A program made the translations under genes and the position numbers. From contig OY720345.1 of the NCBI GenBank assembly GCA_963082975.1, positions 1,625,001-1,689,000 of the forward strand: a stretch of 64,000 nt of DNA, given 5' to 3'. This document shows positions 16,631 to 54,704 of the stretch, piece by piece. Every line of letters begins with the position of its first letter. Within the stretch, counting starts at the first letter, position 1. The notes under the pieces are model-generated. The model saw only the letters and a program-made list of their open reading frames with translations, made no database searches and was not told the DNA's origin. This DNA is from Labia minor (lineage: Eukaryota > Arthropoda > Insecta > Dermaptera > Spongiphoridae).

Positions 16631-17358
16631 TTTCATTTCGATATTTTAATTTCATTTCTCGATTTTTATTGATTATTTTTAATTATAATAAAATTTGAGA
16701 AAATGCAAAGTTAGAGACTTGAGACAATTTATAAAAATTAATTTATAAAAATTAACGGTATAAAAGTATTGATAAAACTAAAGATATATTAACAATATAT
16801 ACATTCATTAATAGTATTAATTTAAATTAATGGATTTATTTGATTTTTTATTATTAAGTTCATTTATTAATTTTTTTAGATCATAGTTAATTCCCTCCCT
16901 TAAAATAAAAGAAGTACCTATTCAAATATGGAAAGAATAAATACAAAATAATTTAAGTTAAATATGATTTAAATATTTTATTATATTAATTAAAATGAGA
17001 ACTTTTAGAATAAATTATTTAATTGAAATGATATTTGAATATTAGAATTAAAAATAAAAAGTTAAATATTATAATAATTCTTTGATTGGGAATCCCTAGA
17101 GTTATATACATTGTGTAAAATGAGTCCGCCAGTCAGTGGGCCACGCCTGGCTCTTGAATGAACAACACGGAGAACTATATATAAACTTTAAATCTATCTC
17201 TCTCCCGCTCACACACACTCCCACCTCTCTCCTCATCCCCTCCTCCTCTCATTTCTTAGTTATTTCAATTTCCACAAATTGTCTTATTTTTAAAATATTC
17301 ACTAATTTACTTTCTATTTTTATTCTTTAATCCTTAAATAATATATTTTCTATTTTAT
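16631..17358. other. AT-rich stretch, no gene seen
   Basis: AT-rich spacer between the LINE and the first family A repeat. A less AT-rich part with C/T-rich sequence at 17090-17280 has no recognisable product. Confidence 0.5.
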
Positions 17359-18014
17359 TACCGACCGACGATAGTAAGGGAGGTATTGTTTTCACACCAA
17401 ATTTCACATGTGGAGATTTTTACATATCTCCACGAATCATGCATTTTCTAAACAGAAAAAAGTATTTTTAGCATGATGTCTGTCCGTCCGTCTGTCCGTC
17501 CGTCTGTCCGTCTGTCCGTCTGTCCGTCCGTATAGATGTGTACAGCCTGAACGGCTCAACCGATTTTGATGAAATTTGGTATATTTACTTAATGCATCAG
17601 TGGGATGAATTGATCAACTTTTGGTGCAATTCCGGAAACCGGAAGTGGTAGTATTAGCGATTGACGATAGGAAGGAAAGGGTTATTTTCACACCAAAGGA
17701 GATTTTTTTATATATCACCACGAATCATACACTTTGTATTGGTTTTATCCTCGAGAAAAATCATATTTATTAGTTTTTTCTTGATTTAAAATTATATGAC
17801 GTCATCCAGCCATTCATGACGTCATAAGCCTGGTCTTGCATATATATTCTAAATAAAATAAAATTAAAAATGTTTATATTTATTATTTATGTATCCATAT
17901 CTGTTTTTTATTACATTAATAGATATATTAAAATTATTTGAAATTGTTTCTGTAGCTGGAAATTAATTTATTTCAAACCGTCGGTCGGTTCGGACCTGGC
18001 CACAGGTCAACTTA
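17359..18014 (+). mobile_element. Family A Helentron-associated (DINE-1-like) element, copy A1
   Basis: A 656-bp non-coding element. It begins TACCGACCGACGATAG. Its 11-bp ACCGACCGACG returns inverted but subterminally at 17979-17989. It is followed by a perfect hairpin GACCTG-GCCA-CAGGTC at 17993-18008 and the end AACTTA at 18009-18014. T precedes the element and T follows it. A variable GTCY (GTCC/GTCT) microsatellite lies at about 17479-17530. Asymmetric inverted repeats, a GTCY run, a 3' hairpin and T/T flanks are the described traits of Helentron-associated interspersed elements. A second, diverged version of the 5' module starts near 17660. Two TGACGTCA palindromes lie at 17797-17804 and 17817-17824. 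No coding capacity, so it must have moved using another element's Rep/helicase. Confidence 0.8.
17479..17530 (+). repeat. GTCY microsatellite of copy A1
   Basis: About 13 tetranucleotide units alternating GTCC and GTCT. Its length differs between family A copies. Confidence 0.9.
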
Positions 18015-18047
18015 TGTTAAAATGTAAATAACTTACATTTTAACATA
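18013..18047. other. Perfect 15-bp inverted repeat abutting A1
   Basis: TATGTTAAAATGTAA and TTACATTTTAACATA are separated by 5 nt (ATAAC). The structure starts in the last bases of the A1 3' end. It could be a cruciform-forming target or part of a neighbouring element that ends near 18120 with CATA repeats and a TA run. Confidence 0.7.
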
Positions 18048-18250
18048 TTACACTATGACAGCAAAAAAGTAAACGAATTACATACATACATACATACAAA
18101 CAGTCTCCTTTATATATATAGATTATTTAACACTTATTCAAATTTAATATTTAGAATTTATCTCTTTATTATGATAATAATTTAGAATAAATAAATAATT
18201 TTATTTTGAATTTTATTTATTTATTTTTTAGAAATATATTTATTTATTTT

Positions 18251-18874
18251 TACCGACCGACGATAGTAAGGGAGGTATTGTTTTCACACCAAATTTCACA
18301 TGTGGAGATTTTTACATATCTCCACGAATCATGCATTTTCTTAACAGAAAAAAGTATTTTTAGCATGATGTCTGTCCGTCCGTCTGTCCGTCTGTCCGTC
18401 CGTATAGATGTGTACAGCCTGAACGGCTCAACCGATTTTGATGAAATTTGGTATATTTACTTAATGCATCAGTGGGATGAATTGATCAACTTTTGGTGAA
18501 AATCCGGAAACCGGAAGTGGTAGTATTAGCGATCGACAATAGGAAGGAAAGGGTTATTTTCACACCAAATTTCACATGAGGAGATTTTTTACATATTATC
18601 ACGAATCATTCACTTTGTATTGATTTTATCTTCGAGAAAAATCATCTTTATTAGTTTTTTTCTTAATTTAAAATTATATGACGTCATCCAGCCATTCACG
18701 ACGTCACAGCCTGGTATTATAAATAAAAAAAAATTAAAAATATTTATGTTATATGCCTATCTGTTTTTTATTACATTAATAGATATATTAAAATTATTTG
18801 AAATTATTTCTGTAGCTGGAAATTAATTTATTTCAAACTGTCGGTCGGTTCAGACCTGGCCACAGGTCAACTTA
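18251..18874 (+). mobile_element. Family A Helentron-associated element, copy A2
   Basis: About 624 bp, same strand as A1 and starting about 240 bp after it. It has the same 5' end TACCGACCGACGATAG, a shorter GTCY run (about 18370-18404), the core ACCGATTTTGATGAAATT, the diverged internal 5' module (from about 18535), the subterminal inverted repeat, and the GACCTG-GCCA-CAGGTC hairpin ending AACTTA at 18874. One of the two TGACGTCA sites is changed to CGACGTCA (18699-18706). Confidence 0.8.
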
Positions 18875-19503
18875 TGTCTTTATCTTTAAAATACAATTTT
18901 ATTTTTTATTAAAGATAATATTTTATAGAATTTCAAATTAACGTTTTGATCCGGTTTTAGAAGGACGGATGTTAAAAATCTCTTTCTCTCTCTCCCCCCC
19001 CCTCCTTCTCCTCCTCCTCCTCTCCTGCTACTTATTCCGAATTGAAACCTTTAAGATTAGAGTCATCTATTCTAGGCAAGTAGATGCCGGGTTGGCTTCG
19101 CGATTCAGCCTACATTTATAAATGATTCCTATTTGAATTCGCACAATGGCATATCCAGGCGCACCAATAATCCTTACGGAGGGAGCCTTCTCCTTTGCCA
19201 AAGTTTAACTCAAATCGAAAGGAAATGGGGGAAAAAAATCAAGAAAGCATTCTTTTTTTCCACCTTTTGCCCATCAACTAACGTGTGTTTAATTTTTTAA
19301 TGTAATCTTTAGTTTATTAAGTGTGGTATTATCTAAAAGACTCATTCCATCAGCTGTCATAATATTATAATTCATTTGCACACACACAAACTCTATTACT
19401 ATAATATATATATATTTATTGTATATTTTAAATAGATTACTATATTATTATATATTATTAATAATGAAAAAAAAATAAATAAATATGTAATCTTAACGAT
19501 TTT
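18875..19503. other. Spacer with C/T-rich and GC-richer part
   Basis: A C/T-rich tract at 18985-19025 and a GC-richer, unrecognised part at 19060-19210. The remainder is AT-rich. No gene seen. Confidence 0.45.
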
Positions 19504-19980
19504 TACCGACCGACAATAGTAAGTTGGTGAGTATTGTTTTCTCACCAAATTTCACATGTGCAGATTTTTACATATCTCCACGAATCATGCATTTTCTTAA
19601 CTGTAAAAAAGTATTTTTAGCATGATATCTGTCCGTCCGTACGTCTGTGTGTCCGTATAGATGTGTACAGCTTGAACGGCTCAACGGATTTTGACACAAT
19701 TTGGTATAAGTATTTACTTAATGCATCAGTACCATGAATTCATTAACTTTTGGTTTATATCCGGAAACCGGAACTGGTACTTTACAAAGTATTAATTTTT
19801 ATATTCATTGTCCCAAAATATTTCACTTAAAATATAGTAATAATTAATAATTGAGTAATTAAACTAAAAATAAAAATTAAGATAAAATAATTTAGTCAAT
19901 TTAATTCACGTTTTAAAAATATTTTTTTTTATACTTTATATATATATTTAATGTTGTTTGGAAATTAATTTATTTCAAAT
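19504..19980 (+). mobile_element. Family A element, decayed copy A3
   Basis: It starts TACCGACCGACAATAGTAAG, carries a short GTCY run (about 19628-19655), and matches other copies to GGAAACCGGAACTGGTAC near 19780. After a diverged AT-rich section, GGAAATTAATTTATTTCAAA near 19960-19978 matches the segment just before the 3' subterminal inverted repeat in other copies. The 3' hairpin itself is missing. A 3'-truncated, old copy. Confidence 0.7.
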
Positions 19981-28153: not shown

Positions 28154-29150
28154 ACTTTCCCGCATATACTTCGTATAAGGGAAGTATTGGAATCGTCAAA
28201 AATTTCGACTTCGAGATTTCGATAGATCTTGACGTTTTAGACCTCCCTGAGTCGGAAAATACCATTTTTCGAATTATGTCTGTGTGTGTGTATGTATGTA
28301 TGTATGTATGTAAGCAAATTTACTCAAAAACTAATCAAGCTAGGACTTCGAAATTTGGTACACCGATATTATTCACAGTTTGTAGATTTCTATCAAAATT
28401 TGGTCAAAATCGGTTAACCGGAAGTGGTACTTTACCTACACTGGTTGCGCTTACCTTTCAAGTAAAGTACCAGTTTGCTTCGAGATATTTGCTTCATATT
28501 TTGTATATAGATTTAAAAATATGAAAAAAATTCAGATACCAAATATCATCATGATCTGACTACCAGAAGTGACATTTTACCTATACAAGTAGCTTTTCCT
28601 TTTTACCGACCGACGATAGTAAGGGAGGTATTCTTTTCACGCCAAATTTCACCTGTGGATATTTTTAGGTACATATCTCCACGAATCATGCATTTTCTTA
28701 ACAGAAAAAAGTATTTTTAGCATGATGTCTGTTCGTCCGTCCGTCCGTATAGATGTGTACAGCCTGAACGGCTCAACGGATTTTGATGAAATTTGGTATA
28801 TTTACTTAATACATCAGTAGGATGAATTGTTCAACTTTTGGTGCAAATCCGGAAACCGGAAGTGCTAGTATTGCCGATCGAAGAGAGGAAGTGAAGGGTT
28901 ATTTTCATATCAAATTTCACGTGAAGGCATATCTCCACGTGTTATGCACTTTGTATTGGTTTTATCCTCGAGAAAAATCATCTTCATTAGTTTTTTCTTA
29001 ATTTAAAATTATATGACGTCACCCAGCACTTCATGACGTCACAGCCAGCCCTTATATATTATAAATAAAATAAAATTAAAAATATTTATATTATATCCAT
29101 ATCTGTTTTTTTTTACATTTAAAATATCAGTTAACCGGAAGTAGCACTTT

Positions 29151-34498: not shown

Positions 34499-34751
34499 GG
34501 AATATGATGATAGGGGAACGAATTGCTTAGATTAGACCTTCTCTCCCTTGCAATGGGGAAAACTTTACAAGCCATGATGATGGGATGGACAAAGAGATAA
34601 AATATGATAGAACAAAAAAAAACATATAAAAAGAAATAGATAAAAAAAAAGAAAAATGAAGAAAAGATGGAGCATAACTTCCCAGTTGAAACTAAAAATG
34701 AAAATTAAATATCATTATGCATTATAAATTAAAATTAATAAATGATATTTA
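32365..34751. other. Spacer with C17 and G12 tracts, no gene recognised
   Basis: Contains C17 at 32729-32745, G12 at 33810-33821, an A-rich tract at 33430-33475, (GA)n at about 34168-34190 and (AT)n at about 34462-34491. The GC-richer part at 32600-32890 carries a short frame (32710-32940) without a known domain; its start includes the C tract, so it is unreliable. Confidence 0.45.
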
Positions 34752-35250
34752 TTAAAACACCGCGTGTTTGGTTGTTTGTTGATGGCACCACGTCACATGC
34801 TGGGGCGTGATTTGCAGTGTTAAAAAATTAATTCCAGTAATTTCAGCGATTCAATCAAGCTGAAATTCTATACTAATAGCAGTTTTATACAATTTTTAAT
34901 CATGTGAAAAACTATCAAATATATATCTTTATTTTTACTATCAGTTTAGAGGAAGAAAAATGAAAACGTTGTAGATAATGACCCTCTTCCGGATGAGCTA
35001 CATTTCTCAAAAGTGGATAGAAAACTACGAATTTTGAATAATGCCCGTATAACAAATTTCATGATTCTAGCTCAAACCGTTTTTGCGTAATTTTATCTAC
35101 ATACACACACACACACACTCACACACACAGACATTTCCCTCAACCTTAGTGAAAGAAAATGATTCAGAAACCTTCAATACGTATAAAAACATCAAATCTC
35201 GACATCGAAAATTTTCATGATCGCAATACTACTATCTCTGGCGAGATAGT
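34752..35250 (+). mobile_element. Family F element, copy 2, complete 3' hairpin
   Basis: It matches 2271-2712 in reverse. The 5' side starts TATTAAAACACCGCGTG with GGCACCACGTCACATGC. The middle encodes, in one frame in both copies, PLP..LHFSKVDRKLRI, most likely only because the DNA is conserved. A CA microsatellite lies at about 35101-35128. The 3' end is a perfect hairpin ACTATCTC-TGGC-GAGATAGT at 35231-35250. No TIRs. One-sided hairpins without TIRs are typical of Helitron-like elements, but the end motif is not canonical. Confidence 0.6.
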
Positions 35251-35356
35251 AAAAATGAATTAACTATTTAATTCGAAACCAAATTTTCAATTAAACATGA
35301 CTTAAAAAAATTGTGTTTCAATATTAACGAAATAAATAAATTAATTCAATTGTTCT

Positions 35357-36002
35357 TACCGACCGACGATAGTAAGGGAGAAATTGTTTTCACACCAAAT
35401 TTCACATGAGGAGATTTTTACATATCTCCACGAATCATGCATTTTCTTAACAGAAAAAAGTATTTTTAGCATGATGTCTGTCCGTCCGTCCGTCCGTCCG
35501 TCCGTATAGATGTATACAGCCTGAACGGCTGAACGGATTTTGATGAAATTTGGTATATTTACTTAATGCATCAGTGGGATGAATGGATCAACTTTTGGTG
35601 CAAATCCGGAAACCGGAAGTGGTAGTATTAGCGATCGACGATAGGAAGGGAAGGGTTATTTTCACACCAAATTTCACATGAGAAGATTTTTTTATATATC
35701 ACCACGAATCATACACTTTGTATTGGTTTTATCCTCAGGAAAATCATATTTATTAGTTTTTTCTTGATTTAAAATTATATGACGTCATCTAGCTATTCAT
35801 GACGTCACAGCCTGGTCTTGCATATATATTATAAATAAAATAAAATTAAAAATGTTTATATTTATTATTTATGTTCTATGCCTATCTGTTTTTTATTACA
35901 TTAATAGATCGTATATTAAAATTATTTGAAATTGTTTCTGTAGCTGGAAATTAATTTACTTCAAACCGTCGGTCGGTTCGGACCTGGCCACAGGTCAACT
36001 TA
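35357..36002 (+). mobile_element. Family A Helentron-associated element, copy A5
   Basis: A 646-bp complete copy. 5' TACCGACCGACGATAG, GTCY run of mostly GTCC units at about 35476-35508, core CGGATTTTGATGAAATTTGG, diverged second 5' module from about 35632 (CGATCGACGATAGGAAGG), TGACGTCA at 35780-35787 and 35800-35807, subterminal inverted ACCGTCGGTCGGT, 3' hairpin GACCTG-GCCA-CAGGTC and end AACTTA with T following. Confidence 0.85.
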
Positions 36003-38190
36003 TTTTTACATATTATATTTTTTCATATCTGCGAAAAATAAATTATCAATAAAATTGTCAATTGTGTTTAAGAGAAAAACCTCCTAATGTGGAATTGTAA
36101 TTAAATATATAAAATCCACATTTTATAATATCTTTAGAAATAATTTAAACATTTTAACTATGTAGCTGTAGAATTAAAACCTTAATAAATATTTATTCGA
36201 GGATCCAACAAGAAAGATAATATACAGCAATATTTAATCTTACTTTGTCAAAATATTAATATTTTAATTATAAATTGTAAATATTAATTTATTATACATA
36301 AATAAAAACTGTTTCCATAATAATAAGGTTATTTAATAAAATCATAGGTCATTATATACTATTTTCAATTTGGAATATAAAATTATAAATCATATACCAG
36401 AATATATAATGCAAGGAAAAACATATATTGTTCATTCAATAAGTCGTTGTAATGAATAAAAATAAAAGGAATTTCCCTAGCTGGGGTCTATGGTACAACA
36501 TCGGTGAAAAGCTACTGGATAGCGCCTCCGATCAAGAAAATCAAGGTAAAGGTGGAGAGGACCCGTTCTACTGATTATAGGACACCTCATTGATAGAACC
36601 GACTTGATAGGCGTTTTCCTTACGTAGGACGCGTACAAAGTCAGAGGTTTTTTTTTGTAATGATATATTTTAAATTATTTAATGAAATAAGGAGTTTTAA
36701 ATAAAAATAATTGTACAGAATAAGAAAAAAAAAATATTTGTTTTTTATTATATTATTTTTGAATAGGAATAGATTTTGCTACAGAAGATATTTTTTAAAA
36801 TTTTTTAATACGACTATGTTAATACTTTGATGATTTATTGATGAAATTTTCAAAATAAAAAAATATATAATTATTTTAATTATACTAATTATATACTCGT
36901 AACTGGTAATTTTACATTAATTAATGTTGTTCGTATTTGATTACATAATTATATTTTTCATAACCGATTGTACAATTTCAAAATATCATCATTGAATTTA
37001 AAAAGAAATTAATAATACTAGAGAGAAAACTAAATTTTAAATATTTTTGTTCTCAAAAGTATTGTTATATTTATTATTTTAAGTATTTAATTGGAATTTT
37101 TCGTTTTGAAGTTTTTGAGTACAAATTGAATGTCAAAAAATTAAGTTAGATTCTTGTGAAAACATTTGTGACCTTAATTAAAATTGAAGTGGAATAGTGG
37201 ATTAAAAATTTCTTTGGTTTATCATATTGTTAGTAACAAGAACTTTCAAGTTCCCCTATTATTCCGATAATCGGGAATCACAATTGTATTATATATTGAC
37301 TTAAATATAAAACTTTACTACATATAATTAAAAATGAAATTGAGTTCTATAGATTTGAGTGAGTTAAAGTCTGTTGATAAATTCGAAATTTATAAAAAAA
37401 AAAGAAAAAAAGAAAAACATGGAATTTATTTTTTATTTTTTAATGTGAATTCAATTCAAATAGATAGAGAACAAAGGATAGTAATAAAAAATTGAATATA
37501 TACGCGAGTAAGTTATTCTTTTTAAATTGGACATTCTACTGTTCAGATTAATTTAATTAATATTTTGGAGAATTCATTTATGTGATTAGAATAATTTTTT
37601 ATTTACCTTTTAATTAACTTTACTTTTTTTGATAATTGAATAAATAAATTCTATCTTGATTTTTATTATGAAAACTAAATATAATATATTATATATATAT
37701 AGGATAATCAAAGAAATGTAGTTTCCAATATTTGATTGGATTGGACCGTTCCTTTTGTATGAGATCAAGAAGAAGATTTTCTAGTCGGAAAACAATCTGG
37801 TTGGACTCAGAAACCTCGCACAACTTGGGCATCGAGGAATGCATTTAAAAAGCGTGTTTTATTTGGTAAGTGATGAAGGGAGTGGGATGGGAAATTGAGA
37901 GAAAACTCGAAAAATCTTATAGGATAGAATTTTAGGTTGGTTAGAGAAGAAGAGTAAAAAGAGAGAAGAACTTCTCGAGATGCGGGTGCGTGTCAATAGA
38001 GGCAAAACAACCCCTAAGTCTCTCTCCCTCCTCACACTCTCTAGAGAGTGTGAGCTTCTACTAGAATTCAGTTCAAAGTTTCTAATAAGAAAAAAAAAAA
38101 AAGATCAAAAGATGTTATTAATTCAAAGAAAAAAATTCCAAAGTAACATATACATATATAAATAGTATATATATATATATATGTAATATA

Positions 38191-42919: not shown

Positions 42920-44109
42920 GAACCTAACAAAAAAAAAGAAAAATAAACTAACTCAAAGTTATAATCTAAATAAATTGAATTTAATTTGAATAGAAACTTT
43001 TGTAATTTTAACAAATATTTGTTTATTTTCAATCTATCTACAAGTTTTTATACCTGTGTTATATATTCTTAAAATTACTTGATCACTACATCATATCCTT
43101 CCAATATCGATATTATTATACTCCTTCTAATATCATTTCAAGATTTTGTTGATAGTATGCAATTTGTCGCTTGATCAACAGTGAACAAGACAGCTTCTTC
43201 ACAAGTAGAAATTTAGTTATATTATACTTATTCCTTTTATTTTGTTCTCCTGCAAGTGCAAAGTTATTTCAACTGAGAGAATGAAATAAATTGTTTAATT
43301 TTAATTAAGCTGTGTTATTTGCACAAGAAACTATCAATAAAATCATTCAATGTTAAATCTAATAGAATATGTTTTTTTATTAATTCAAATATTTTTATAT
43401 TATAAATTAATGAAATATATTTATGTATATTATTATATATTTAATCATATAAATCATGTCAAAAAGTCTTTGTTTCATTGAAAAATATGAATAACATTTT
43501 TCATATTACTTTCACAATATCTCTTCTTTCTCCTTATTGAATAATTATTTTAATGTTTTATTAATGAGTATTTTATTTTTGTTTTTTTTTAAACGATTAA
43601 AAAAAATAAATGAAATCTCTAAAATAATAGTTTAATAATTTTCTTAATAAAATACAATTGAATGAATAGTTTTTGTGAAAGATGATATAATTGAGTGAAA
43701 TAAAAAAACTGCTAAGGCGCCTGTTGCTTAGCTACTTTCAGTTCCGTTTATGATTGACCACTTGTTACAAACACTTTGGATAAAATGGTTGTTACTTCTC
43801 GAGTTGGTTTGGTTTTTCAATGTAATTGATTCTTAAAATTAAGTGTAGGAGTATGAAAAGTAAAGTTTGGAGTCACGCACATCGGACAAAATCTTAATTG
43901 CAAATGAACTTTCAGAGAAAGAATTCGGCAAAAGCAAAATATGTTTATAATTATTAGCGTTTCTATCTTAAATATCTTAAATATATCAATCCTGGACAAA
44001 TGTGACTTTGAAAGATGCATGCAGCAGCACTTCATTAAGTTTAATTCGGCTTCCATTCAATAAAAATTGAATTAAATTCCAATTATTTATCTTATCCTAT
44101 CAGTATTTT
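41603..44109. other. AT-rich stretch, no gene seen
   Basis: AT-rich with a long A run at 42887-42917. A less AT-rich part at 43700-44060 contains a short inverted repeat GCTAAG...CTTAGC near 43710-43731 and a 79-codon minus frame without a known domain. Confidence 0.5.
42887..42917. repeat. Poly-A run
   Basis: Uninterrupted run of about 31 A. Confidence 0.9.
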
Positions 44110-44284
44110 TACCGACAGACGATAGTATGGGAGGGAATGTTTTCACACCAAATTACACATGTGGAGATTTTTACGAATTTTTGATCTCCACAAATCATGC
44201 ACTTTGTATTGGCTTTATCCTCGGGAAAAATCATTTTCATTATTTTTTTCTTAATTTAAAATTATATGACGTCACAGCCAGCGC
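44110..44284 (+). mobile_element. Family A short 'monomeric' copy A7
   Basis: It begins TACCGACAGACGATAG and continues through the first 5' module (ACACCAAATTACACATGTGG). It then joins the sequence that in other copies follows the second module (CACTTTGTATTGGCTTTATC, TTAAAATTATATGACGTCA, CAGCC). The GTCY run, the core and one module are absent. The 3' end is missing. It looks like a product of recombination between the two internal modules, or a pre-duplication form. Confidence 0.65.
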
Positions 44285-47759: not shown

Positions 47760-48625
47760 TAGATAAAATTAATTCATCTTAACTTAAATTAAAAAACAAA
47801 TTTCATCAAAGTTCATAAAAGAGAATTAAATAAACATATTCAATATATTTTCTCTGAAATCGGTCTTTCAAAATATTAAAAAACAATGAGACTACTGACC
47901 TAAGAAAATTTTCAATCAATCGTTCTCTTCTCTTACTCTAATCTAAAATTATATTCATAAAATGTGTAAATGAAACTCAAATCAACGATGAATGGACACT
48001 GGGACATTGAAATATTTATTACCTATGATTAGATTTTTCTGATTAAGGCCTCCCTCGCGTGAATAGACTGAATTCATCATATTTTAGATAAAAGTTGAAA
48101 CTTGTTAAACTAATGGTTAGCTCTTTACAAAAAAAACAATTAAATATTCCGAGATTAATTAATTTTGTTTTTTAATAAATTAAAGAATAACAATAAAAAC
48201 CAACGGAGATTTTTTAATTTTTAATTTTTTATCTTTATATTATAACTTTAAATTTTATATTTAAAAAAAAACAATTATGGTTACACAAAATTTGTTTAAA
48301 AAAAAATAAGAAAAAACACTCATGAATATATTTAAAACTAAGCTTATGTAGGTAATTTATTTAAATTATGAATAAGTATAATTTTGTTAATTATTTTCTA
48401 ATATTTCAATGTTTAAAAATTGTAATGAATTATAATTTTATAAATTTTATTGAATGTAATATTTTTAAATTAAGAAAGAGTATTTTCCAAAAATGCCAAA
48501 CTAATACACAAATATTGAATATTATTATTTAAATTTATCTAAAAATTATGTTATATATATACTTATGATATACGTATACGAAATGCAATGTTTGCAGATT
48601 CAAAAAAAGATTGATTAGAAAATAT
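47760..48625. other. AT-rich stretch, no gene seen
   Basis: AT-rich spacer between the deleted Tc1/mariner element and the satellite array. Confidence 0.5.
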
Positions 48626-50158
48626 CCATCGTTTAGGGGTATCAACTTTGATCAGAGCTCAGTCTCGAATTTAATATCATTTTCATCCATTTCTGATCCC
48701 TAAACACGAATCAATTCATATTTCATCTTTATTATCTTCATTTCATTTATTATTTTCATTGATATCGTAGAAAAAACGTTGATTCATTGATATTTTAATT
48801 ATTTTCATTGAATTCATAGAGAAATCGTGATTTTTAGTAAATTTTATAGCGAAAATACTACTTTTTTTAAATACGAGGAATTTATTGTTATATTATATAT
48901 CATTTTCTACATTTTTTGATCCTAAACACGAATCACTTGATATTTCATTGATATCTTAATTATTTTCATTGAATTCATATAGAAATTGTGATTTTTAGCA
49001 AATTTTATAGCGAAAATGCTTTTTTTTAATACGAGCGATATATTTATCTATTATATATCATTTTCTTCATTTTTTGATCCTTAACACAAATCAAGTCTTA
49101 GTTTTTTAATTTTAAAGGGGAATTGCTACTTTTTTTTAATACTAGAGATATATTTATCTATTATATATCATTTTCTTCATTTTTTGATCATAAACACAAA
49201 TCAGTACATATTTCATTGATATCTTTATTATTTTCAATGAATTCATATAGAAATCGTGATTTTTAGCAACTTTTATAGCGACATTGCATCTTTTTTAAAT
49301 ACTAGGGATATATTTATCTATTATTTATCATTTTCTTCGTTTTATGATTCTTAACACGACTCAGTTCATATTTTATTGATATCTTAATTTTATTCATTAA
49401 ATTCATAGAGTTATCGTGATTTTTAGCAAATTTTATAGCGAAAATGCTTTTTGTTTAAATACGAGCGATATAGTTATCTATTATATATAATTTTCTTCAT
49501 TTTTTGATCCTTAACACAAATCAAGTCATAGTTTTTTAATCTCTTAATTATTTTCATAAAATTCATAGAGAAATTGTGATTTTTATCAAATTTTATAACG
49601 AAAATGCTACTTTTTTAAATACTAGGGATCTATTTATCTATTATATATCATTTTCTTCATTTTTTGATCCTAAACACAAATCAAGTCATATTTTTTAATA
49701 TCTTAATTATTTTCATTGAATTCATTGAGAAATTGTAATTTTTAGCAAATTTTATAAAATTTGTTATAAAAATAGAGATTTCTCTATGAATTCAATGAAA
49801 ATAATTAAGATATTAATGAAAAATCAATTGATTCGTGTTAAGGATCAAAAAATAAAGAAAATGATATATAATAGATAAATATATCCCTACTATTTAAAAA
49901 AATAACAATTTCCCTATAAAATTTGTTAAAAATGAAGATTTCTCTATGAATTCATTGAAAATAATTAAGATATTAAAAAAATATGACTTGGTTTGTGTTT
50001 GGGATCAAAAAATGAAGAAAATGATAAATAATAAATAAATGTATCCCTTCTATTTAAAAAAGTTGTATTATGATATATAATAATATTTTAGTTTTACCGT
50101 TAAAATTATGAAAAGTTGGCGGGCGATGACCCATCGGTTGGGGGTATCAACTTTTATC
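48626..50158. repeat. Palindromic ~160-bp satellite array with 28-bp direct flanks
   Basis: Head-to-tail units of about 160 bp run from about 48680 to 49754. The TTTTTGATC landmark recurs at 48912, 49071, 49181, 49341, 49501 and 49661, and one unit is shortened to 110 bp. At a perfect 18-bp palindrome (49746-49763, CAAATTTTATAAAATTTG) the array reverses, and about two units follow in the opposite orientation to about 50065. The array is bounded by a 28-bp direct repeat with 25 matches (48626-48653 and 50131-50158), both containing GGGGTATCAACTTT. The right flank also has AAAAGTTG (50111-50118) inverted against CAACTTTT (50148-50155). No coding sequence. It may be a transposon with internal satellite repeats or a locally rearranged array. 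Confidence 0.8.
49746..49763. repeat. Perfect 18-bp palindrome at the array turning point
   Basis: CAAATTTTATAAAATTTG equals its own reverse complement and lies exactly where the satellite orientation switches. It is the centre of a larger inverted repeat with arms of about 300 bp. Confidence 0.9.
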
Positions 50159-50389
50159 TTGGAGATAATTAAATAAATTGATATAAATACTATTATACTG
50201 TCTCCAAATAGTATAGTAATAAAAAATGTTTCTCCTTGAAAATAAATTTCTATTTAAATATTTTTAATAAAATATTTTTATGTTTTTATGCTTTTTTGTT
50301 TTTTGTTTTTTTTTTATAATTCCCCCTAGCAAAATAATCCTAACTTGAGTTGGCTTTTAAATATCGTAGAACTAGAGTTGACTTCCGAG

Positions 50390-52562: not shown

Positions 52563-53035
52563 CTCATTAGAAAGTCATACTTAACAAAAGTAATATTTAT
52601 TATTAAATGGTATTATATTGCTGTTGGATTTTCATTGGGTTATAAAAATAATTAATCATTTTTCTTTAATCTAATATTCAGAATTACAATTTTAATTTTT
52701 CATTTTTTGTTTTTTAAATTCGTAAATCCTAAAAGTCAGAATAAAAACTAAAATTATTTTATTGAAATGTTGAAGGAAAAAATATGTAAAGAAAAATCGT
52801 AATTGTTCCGAAATCGGACGGTAAAGACCACGATTCAATAATCACAATGTTTTTTTTTTTAAATATCGCTGAAGATGTTATTGTTGCAAAAATGTTAATC
52901 CGTTTGTTATAGATCGGTGTCTTTATGACCAAAAGAGTATAAAAATTCGAGACGTTCTCCAATGGTCTTCCATATTCAAAAGAGAAAACATGCAATTGTT
53001 TCATGGCAGAGAATGGCGTGGCTATAAAAGGAAAA

Positions 53036-53686
53036 TAAGTTGACCTGTGGCCAGGTCCGAACCGACCGACGGTTTGAAATAAATTAATTTCCAGCTACAG
53101 AAACAATTTCAAATAATTTTCATATATCTATTAATGTAATAAAAAACAGATATGGATACATAAATAATAAATATAAACATTTTTAATTTTATTTTATTTA
53201 TAATATCTATGCAAGACCAGGCTGTGACGTCATGAATGGCTGGATGACGTCATATAATTTTAAATCAAGAAAAAACTAATAAATATGATTTTTTTCGAGG
53301 ATAAAACCAATACAAAATGCATGATTCGTGGTGATATATAAAAAAATCTCCTTTGGTGTGAAAATAACCCTTTCCTTCCTATCGTCGATCGCTAATACTA
53401 CCACTTCCGGTTTCCGGAATTGCACTAAAAGTTGATCAATTCATCCCACTGATGCATTAAGTAAATATACCAAATTTCATCAAAATCGGTTGAGCCGTTC
53501 AGGCTGTACACATCTATACGGACGGACAGACGGACGGACGGACGGACAGACGGACAGACGGACAGACATCATGCTAAAAATACTTTTTTCTGTTTAGAAA
53601 ATGCATGATTCGTGGAGATATGTAAAAATCTCCACATGTGAAATTTGGTGTGAAAACAATACCTCCCTTACTATCGTCGGTCGGTA
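53036..53686 (-). mobile_element. Family A Helentron-associated element, copy A6
   Basis: A 651-bp complete minus-strand copy. The 3' end is at the left: TAAGTTGACCTGTGGCCAGG, the hairpin read from the other strand. The 5' end at the right is TACCGACCGACGATAG when read on minus, preceded by a T run. GTCY run at about 53520-53569. Both TGACGTCA sites are intact (53225-53232 and 53245-53252). The second 5' module lies at about 53340-53390. Flanks on both sides are T-rich on the element strand. Confidence 0.85.
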
Positions 53687-54704
53687 AAAAAAAAACTTTG
53701 AAGGAGAATAAACAAAAATAAATTAAAATATTAAATAAAAAGACAAAGCGCTGATTTTTAATTGTATTAATTAAAATATATTTGAATTCAATTAAATTCA
53801 TAAAAAAAAAAAAAATTTCAAGCTCACAATTTCTGATTAATGACATTACCAGATGGTTTGACTATTTACACGATTCGATTAAAAAAAAAAAATGTGTTTT
53901 CGAAAGTACATATTTTGTAAAAAGGTAATTTCGCTTGTTCTATTGTGCGATGTGCTGCCAATCATATCAATTTCGATGGGTGAGAATCGAAAATTGCCAC
54001 AATAACTATAAACATGTTGTTATCACGCGGTAGCAGTTTCCTGCGAAATAAGAAAAGAGCAATTATTTTTTATGTAACGGATCCCGGGGAAATTGAAAAT
54101 CGTCTAGTTGAGCCATTAACAGCCATCTACTATCCCTACCACTTTTTTTTTTTTAACAGCCAAGTCGATTTCCCATTTATGGAGGTATAAAATGGGAGTA
54201 TACACACTCATACTGATAGTAATTTAACGGGGGGTAGTTATTTCTCCTCAAGTGTGAGTTATTAGTTATTAGACACACATATTCATCTCAAATCACATTC
54301 ATTTCAATTCTTTAATAAAGTTTTCGATTAAATAGGAAAATTAGATTTGATCACACATGTAATTTCATAAGAATTTATATAAGAAATTATTATGTAAATA
54401 GCTTCTTTTTTTTCTTCTTCTTCACCATTTTAAATTTAATCAAATTTAAAAATTTCAATTTCGATATCATTTCACATAATATATTAATATTGTTGTTAAT
54501 AGAAATATACTTTATAAATTAAATCTCAAGTCAAATATTTGAATTTTTTTTTTTTTTTTATTAATTTATTATCCGACTACTATTTTATTTAACGTTTCCA
54601 TTTTCCTATTATATGAATTAAAAATATAATTAAAATGTTTGGATCAAATCTAAAAACAGAGTTATGAATGAAAATTAGGCGAAGAATCCTTCATTTTTCA
54701 AATT
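53687..54704. other. Spacer, no gene recognised
   Basis: A less AT-rich part at 53830-54260 contains TAACGGATCCCGGGGAAATT near 54076 but no known domain or RNA gene. The remainder is AT-rich. Confidence 0.4.

Follow-up and report, generated by a model that had tools for sequence, protein, structure and literature searches.

Among the described systems with which the locus reported here can be compared, the satellite mosaics of bivalves fit best. As described for the satellites phBglII400, BIV160 and DTHS3, they consist of short arrays with abrupt edges, at positions that are random for one satellite and non-random for another (PMC5139131). In clone P18 other DNA divides a satellite monomer, and a BIV160 array of nine units lies 22 bp away (PMC5139131), and segments of other satellites serve as flanks of the bivalve arrays (PMC5139131). 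Our locus resembles the mosaics portrayed there in its short, abrupt-edged array, its split monomer and its flanks drawn from another satellite. It differs in that a second satellite, in an array containing an inversion, does the interrupting, and in belonging to a different genome; the likeness drawn is one of structure.

The foldback element Tetris of Drosophila virilis carries tandem repeats of about 220 bp in its inverted arms, and these repeats also form satellite arrays (PMC4079207). The Cg_HINE Helentrons of the Pacific oyster give dispersed, short satellite-like arrays (PMC7492417). In Tribolium castaneum, the TCAST satellite is found in short dispersed arrays, and one type of element has two inverted monomer segments (PMC3411249). 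Short dispersed arrays and inverted monomer segments are likewise seen with our satellite; the transposon-like TCAST element, in contrast, is described with terminal inverted repeats of about 269 bp, some copies also having a target duplication, ACT (PMC3411249).

The window, that is, the whole stretch of 64,000 nucleotides that was analysed, corresponds to C2:1625001-1689000 within an AT-rich genome of 604 Mb in 71 contigs; its G+C content is 17-32% in steps of 2 kb. The locus is built from two repeats: a satellite unit of about 160 bp, and a box of about 90 bp, richer in G+C, which is found in tandem and includes the 28-bp motif lying on either side of the array. A profile search for the unit over the 64 kb gave eight matches on the plus strand at 48674-49747 (the outermost two partial, another of about 107 bp), two on the minus strand at 49766-50068, and none elsewhere. 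The sequence-only reading had described about seven units running one way and about two running back, a perfect 18-bp palindrome at 49746-49763, and a 28-bp direct repeat with 25 of 28 positions matching that brackets the array. All three descriptions hold, with six to seven units on the plus strand and about two on the minus strand by the unit profile, a palindrome that is exact, and a direct repeat that exceeds those of shuffled flanks. The window gave no match in an Rfam scan at gathering thresholds and no tRNA by ARAGORN, and 48600-50200 had no match to a phage collection by blastn. The features are as follows.

48626-48672, plus strand: copy A of the 118-bp tandem repeat, a partial one that covers the box's right-hand part (profile positions 39-84, matched at 48624-48669) and is cut on the left by unique DNA
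48626-48653, plus strand: left copy of the 28-bp direct repeat (25/28 against 50131-50158)
48674-49756, plus strand: left arm, six to seven diverged satellite units of about 160 bp, head to tail (profile matches and genome-wide relatives)
48749-48846, plus strand: internal duplication of 49 bp, lying outermost in the left arm (Tandem Repeats Finder)
49001-49107, plus strand: shortened unit of about 107 bp, 95% identical to the unit at 49429-49588 (unit alignment)
49746-49763, no strand: palindrome of 18 bp, exact, where the array turns; the two arms join there in the same unit phase (exact check)
49757-50073, minus strand: right arm, about two satellite units reversed (two profile matches, 49766-49922 and 49925-50068)
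50083-50158, plus strand: partial copy B of the 118-bp tandem repeat, the left part of the box (profile positions 2-63), cut on the right by the following DNA (85-94% over 69-74 bp to three L066 copies)
50131-50158, plus strand: right copy of the 28-bp direct repeat (25/28 against 48626-48653)

The unit is a satellite of this genome, present as long arrays and as many short dispersed ones. A genome search with 49108-49756 found at least 97 matching places (38 scored of 1504 candidates), and a query spanning the turn, with 40 of 167 candidates scored, yielded 552 matches. Among the matches listed, long arrays of the unit lie at C4:84.08-84.10 Mb on the minus strand and at 84.23-84.26 Mb on the plus strand. 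The arrays in 20 loci retrieved with the unit range from a few units to the whole stretch fetched, further long ones being those of L010, L020-L022 and L028. The same unit thus forms long arrays elsewhere, as expected of a dispersed satellite fragment. In young arrays, units are up to 97-100% alike across loci (L010 and L011; L027, L039 and L049). The units of the window are 85-91% identical to those of other loci, which is about as close as they are among themselves (best nine shown per unit), and reach at most about 91% to any other of 221 sampled units. Set against the 97-100% of the young arrays, this ceiling indicates that the array in the window is old.

Two observations on the placement of the satellite may be added. 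The two long runs on C4, at 84083591-84101418 and 84230773-84262527, stand on opposite strands about 130 kb apart. In a tally of the large contigs C1, C2, C4, C5, C6, C9 and C10, which was drawn from rows hand-selected among the best-scored candidates, excluded small contigs and had no control repeat, the outer 15% of the contigs holds 21 of the 22 unit clusters and 32 of the 40 box clusters listed.

The frame around the array makes the locus look like a mobile element. In 12 shuffles of the flanks the best direct repeat reached 19-22 of 28 positions; the observed 25 of 28 is therefore beyond chance. The frame is in fact longer than 28 bp, since a larger repeat is matched over 47 bp by its left piece and over 69-74 bp by its right. 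The left piece, 48626-48672, is 81% identical over the 47 bp to two copies in L066 and 74% to a third, and a query with 50066-50170 gave 44 matches, with close relatives in L066 (inside L063), L064 and L065. L066 is a tandem repeat of 118 bp at C9:11.51 Mb. When the two frame pieces are joined without the array, they match two neighbouring pairs of L066 copies at 102/122 and 100/121 positions, and L064 at 98/121, falling short of these repeats only by about 23 bp of AT-rich spacer. The pieces, in other words, run into each other as neighbouring 118-bp units do. The simplest reading is that the frame would be a 146-bp stretch, or 1.24 copies, of the 118-bp repeat, with the satellite array interrupting its AT-rich spacer. 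The 28 bp would then be 146 minus 118, the portion of the 118-bp unit that the two remaining copies have in common, and a frame of this kind would be neither a target duplication nor an element's terminal repeat. From the last unit to copy B there are about 10-20 bp assigned to neither repeat. A genome search for other copies of the window's left flank found none, just four short weak matches.

The box recurs in tandem with a period of about 210-220 bp in L018, about 160 bp in L059 and about 118 bp in L066. Being common, whole or in part, to all three, it looks as if the box was kept while the AT-rich spacer changed. The profile also hinted, at five loci, that the box might be a defined element starting at position 36-39; this idea was dropped, as the left contexts printed differ and one is an internal deletion.

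The pairing of box and unit extends well beyond this locus. The sequence-only reading would have taken it as a refutation had the 28-bp sequence turned up nowhere else near such arrays. The genome search did not give that outcome, with flank and unit both recurring near each other and the flank motif lying beside arrays: among 28 loci retrieved with the box, and so chosen regardless of the unit, 16 hold the unit. In the other direction, four of the 20 loci retrieved with the unit hold the box (L009, L016, L018 and L023). As a rough control, the window has no unit outside the cluster; treating it as seventeen 3.5-kb tiles, all of which come from one region, Fisher's test gives p = 6e-5 for the unit at box loci. 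Box-unit mosaics are common among the sampled loci. Where box and unit adjoin within 150 bp, their orientations are opposite in 18 of 25 adjacencies, several of them from one locus, and by this usual arrangement it is the left arm of the window that looks inverted.

The turning point consists of the palindrome CAAATTTTATAAAATTTG. Palindromes of at least 18 bp occurred at a mean of 2.35 per 64 kb in 20 first-order Markov sequences, so that an 18-bp palindrome alone is not rare here; this one stands at the turn because two units meet at the same phase. Reversals of this sort are not peculiar to the window. The 47 sampled loci contain 11 orientation switches, nine tail to tail and two head to head (two-sided binomial about 0.065, worked by hand). 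Of the nine, one has box repeats within an intervening kilobase, and in three others the units are 76-240 bp apart. The excess of tail-to-tail switches is not predicted by a simple internal inversion. The junction sequences at nine other switch loci differ from each other and from that of the window, whose junction, taken at full length with both halves, matched only itself and its own complement among the matches listed.

An inverted structure of this kind is typical of chimeric or hairpin reads, and an assembly artefact has to be considered. The arms of such an artefact would be nearly identical. By unit alignment, the units of the right arm are 78-87% like those of the left, a range that omits the outermost left unit (about 62%, cut out of phase). 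This divergence indicates that the inverted structure is old, and a difference at 13-22% of sites excludes a recent fold-back of a read or of the assembly. With similar switches also present at other loci, an artefact is exceedingly improbable.

The sequence-only reading had offered fold-back replication, in which the right arm would have been copied from the left by a strand turning at the palindrome. The exact palindrome at the junction and the arms meeting in phase are what such an event would leave. Each unit should then be most like its mirror partner, and the mirror pairs R1-L1 and R2-L2, at a mean of 82.4%, rank 6 of 20 pairings, no more alike than others, with R2 closest to L1 (87%) and not to L2 (80%). 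Copying among near-identical units would hide a mirror pattern. As for the phase symmetry, with 11 switches the probability of one or more being symmetric within 3 bp is about 0.39, which also counts against a fold-back. Fold-back replication is thus unsupported by the units themselves, and we hold it to be unlikely.

Two further structures may be noted. At L046:660-820, an insert between units of opposite sign looks like a hairpin with inverted arms (judged by eye; two edge flanks are complementary). In the window, 38031-38054 is an exact 24-bp palindrome of mixed composition, CTCACACTCTCTAGAGAGTGTGAG.

Whether the array moves as an element with ends of its own is a matter of its edges. Over 53 clean edges from 28 loci, a set that does not include the window's own edges, which adjoin box pieces, the phase of the unit at the edge is uniform (R = 0.16, p = 0.25). 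A preferred phase had been hinted at by a hand list of nine arrays and was gone with the 53 edges. When the 120 bp outside each edge were compared, only the trio L037, L044 and L046 proved alike from the edge on (90-94%). The remaining matches between edge flanks are short or set in at a distance from the edge; next to some of the edges lie dispersed repeats. Nine shared flank segments between loci were examined, and all fall in two dispersed repeat families; other shared segments exist, some of them beside arrays (L055, L056). Abrupt edges with neither a preferred phase nor a general common flank are again as expected of a dispersed satellite. The trio, at L037:2170, L044:2777 and L046:2219, comprises three arrays on two contigs, with one flank in common and the same junction phase, 47-48. 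From the shared flank and phase it follows that a junction can be copied along with its array, while a general end is absent.

One insertion is resolved. In L014 a short array has inserted cleanly into a dispersed repeat; copies of that repeat without an interruption, at least seven of them, are found in the fetched loci and the window (one of the seven matched over just part of the left side). The phase at which the array begins is nearly that at which it ends; a few bases are missing from the target, and this insertion carries no target-site duplication. Two copies of this dispersed repeat, which is about 600 bp long, lie in the window at 2293-2831 and 34696-35260.

These observations bear on two kinds of known element. 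In a foldback-type DNA transposon like Tetris, the arms would be long terminal inverted repeats made of tandem units and moved by a transposase. The arms here are indeed inverted, nine of the 11 switches are tail to tail, and satellite-bearing foldbacks are known (PMC4079207). The array ends, however, are not fixed, and the printed junctions differ. Tetris is described with a flanking domain and target duplications of 8-10 bp (PMC4079207); neither was found here, with duplication checked at L014 only. No general outer flanking domain and no common outer inverted ends of the Tetris type appear over the 53 edge flanks, the one trio being alike, and the frame repeats of the window are direct, not inverted. 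A foldback transposon is therefore very unlikely.

A non-autonomous Helentron, or HINE, of the oyster type, whose central repeats the satellite would supply, would account for short arrays of the ~160-bp unit at many places, and the box carries, by eye, short self-complementary stretches at its right. The window also has a 13-bp inverted repeat, 48086-48098 and 50147-50159, that could pass for subterminal; 7 of 60 shuffles reach 13 bp, which is chance level. The arrays of Cg_HINE are reported to share flanks of 50-100 bp with subterminal repeats and a palindrome (PMC7492417), whereas here no conserved pair of left and right flanks surrounds the arrays over the 53 edges and 28 loci, and just one flank is common to the trio L037, L044 and L046. 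The box, moreover, lies beside just four of the 20 arrays fetched with the unit, and is itself tandem. The chance that the locus is a HINE seems to us very small.

Taken together, the results on edges, flanks and L014 argue against a transposon with defined ends and for a probable insertion of satellite pieces by end joining. What the sequence-only reading had made of the locus survives in its components: the unit, the flank motif and the reversals all recur, and L014 gives a clean insertion. The framed, satellite-bearing mobile element of a new kind does not, given a frame that reads as 1.24 copies of the 118-bp repeat and no preferred edge phase, general ends, target duplication (at L014) or, among the matches listed, shared turn, and neither does fold-back replication.

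We therefore consider it probable that the locus is an old, decayed, dispersed fragment of the 160-bp satellite, seated in the AT-rich spacer of a piece of the 118-bp repeat about 1.24 copies long and altered by ordinary inversion. Ordinary genome debris is, most likely, a better description than a new kind of element. The array may go back to a satellite fragment or circle that inserted non-homologously. The turn could mean that the left ~1.1 kb underwent an ordinary inversion, or that two oppositely oriented pieces were joined; either way the pieces would by chance have come together in one unit phase, at TATA, producing the palindrome. Several facts, however, sit less easily with a decayed fragment: about 23 bp of spacer are missing, the 10-20 bp before copy B are unaccounted for, the nine tail-to-tail switches outnumber the two head-to-head ones, and the flank-unit junction that L037, L044 and L046 have at one phase means that composite pieces can be copied whole. 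Given how common box-unit mosaics are, the array could have come in jointly with the 118-bp pair. It is worth pointing out that two nested ordinary repeats can mimic a framed mobile element with a turning point.

A different route would have the satellite spread as circles of box and unit that re-enter the genome at slightly over one turn, leaving short terminal overlaps, with tail-to-tail turns made on re-entry. Terminal overlaps of 28 bp in the window, 16-19 bp in L014 and 13-14 bp in L015 suggest it; on the unit model, L014 starts and ends at phases 92/108 or 91/110, and L015 at 61/74 or 60/74. A terminal overlap is, nonetheless, not a rule. The arrays of L012, L013, L024 and L025 start and end about 70-77 positions apart, and because these four show no overlap we rate such circles as quite unlikely. 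If they did exist, the lengths of the overlaps at array ends would be a direct footprint of satellite dispersal.

Apart from the old satellite fragment, the window holds a dispersed repeat of about 650 bp, at 17355-18015, 18242-18875, 28596-29119, 35350-36005 and 53033-53694, with partial copies at 19500-19779 and 44103-44277; several copies have an internal GTCC/GTCT microsatellite. The left flank of HINE elements in oysters is likewise described with microsatellites of the GTCC type (PMC7492417). By this analogy, the ~650-bp repeat may be a relative of the Helentrons, which we note as a lead.
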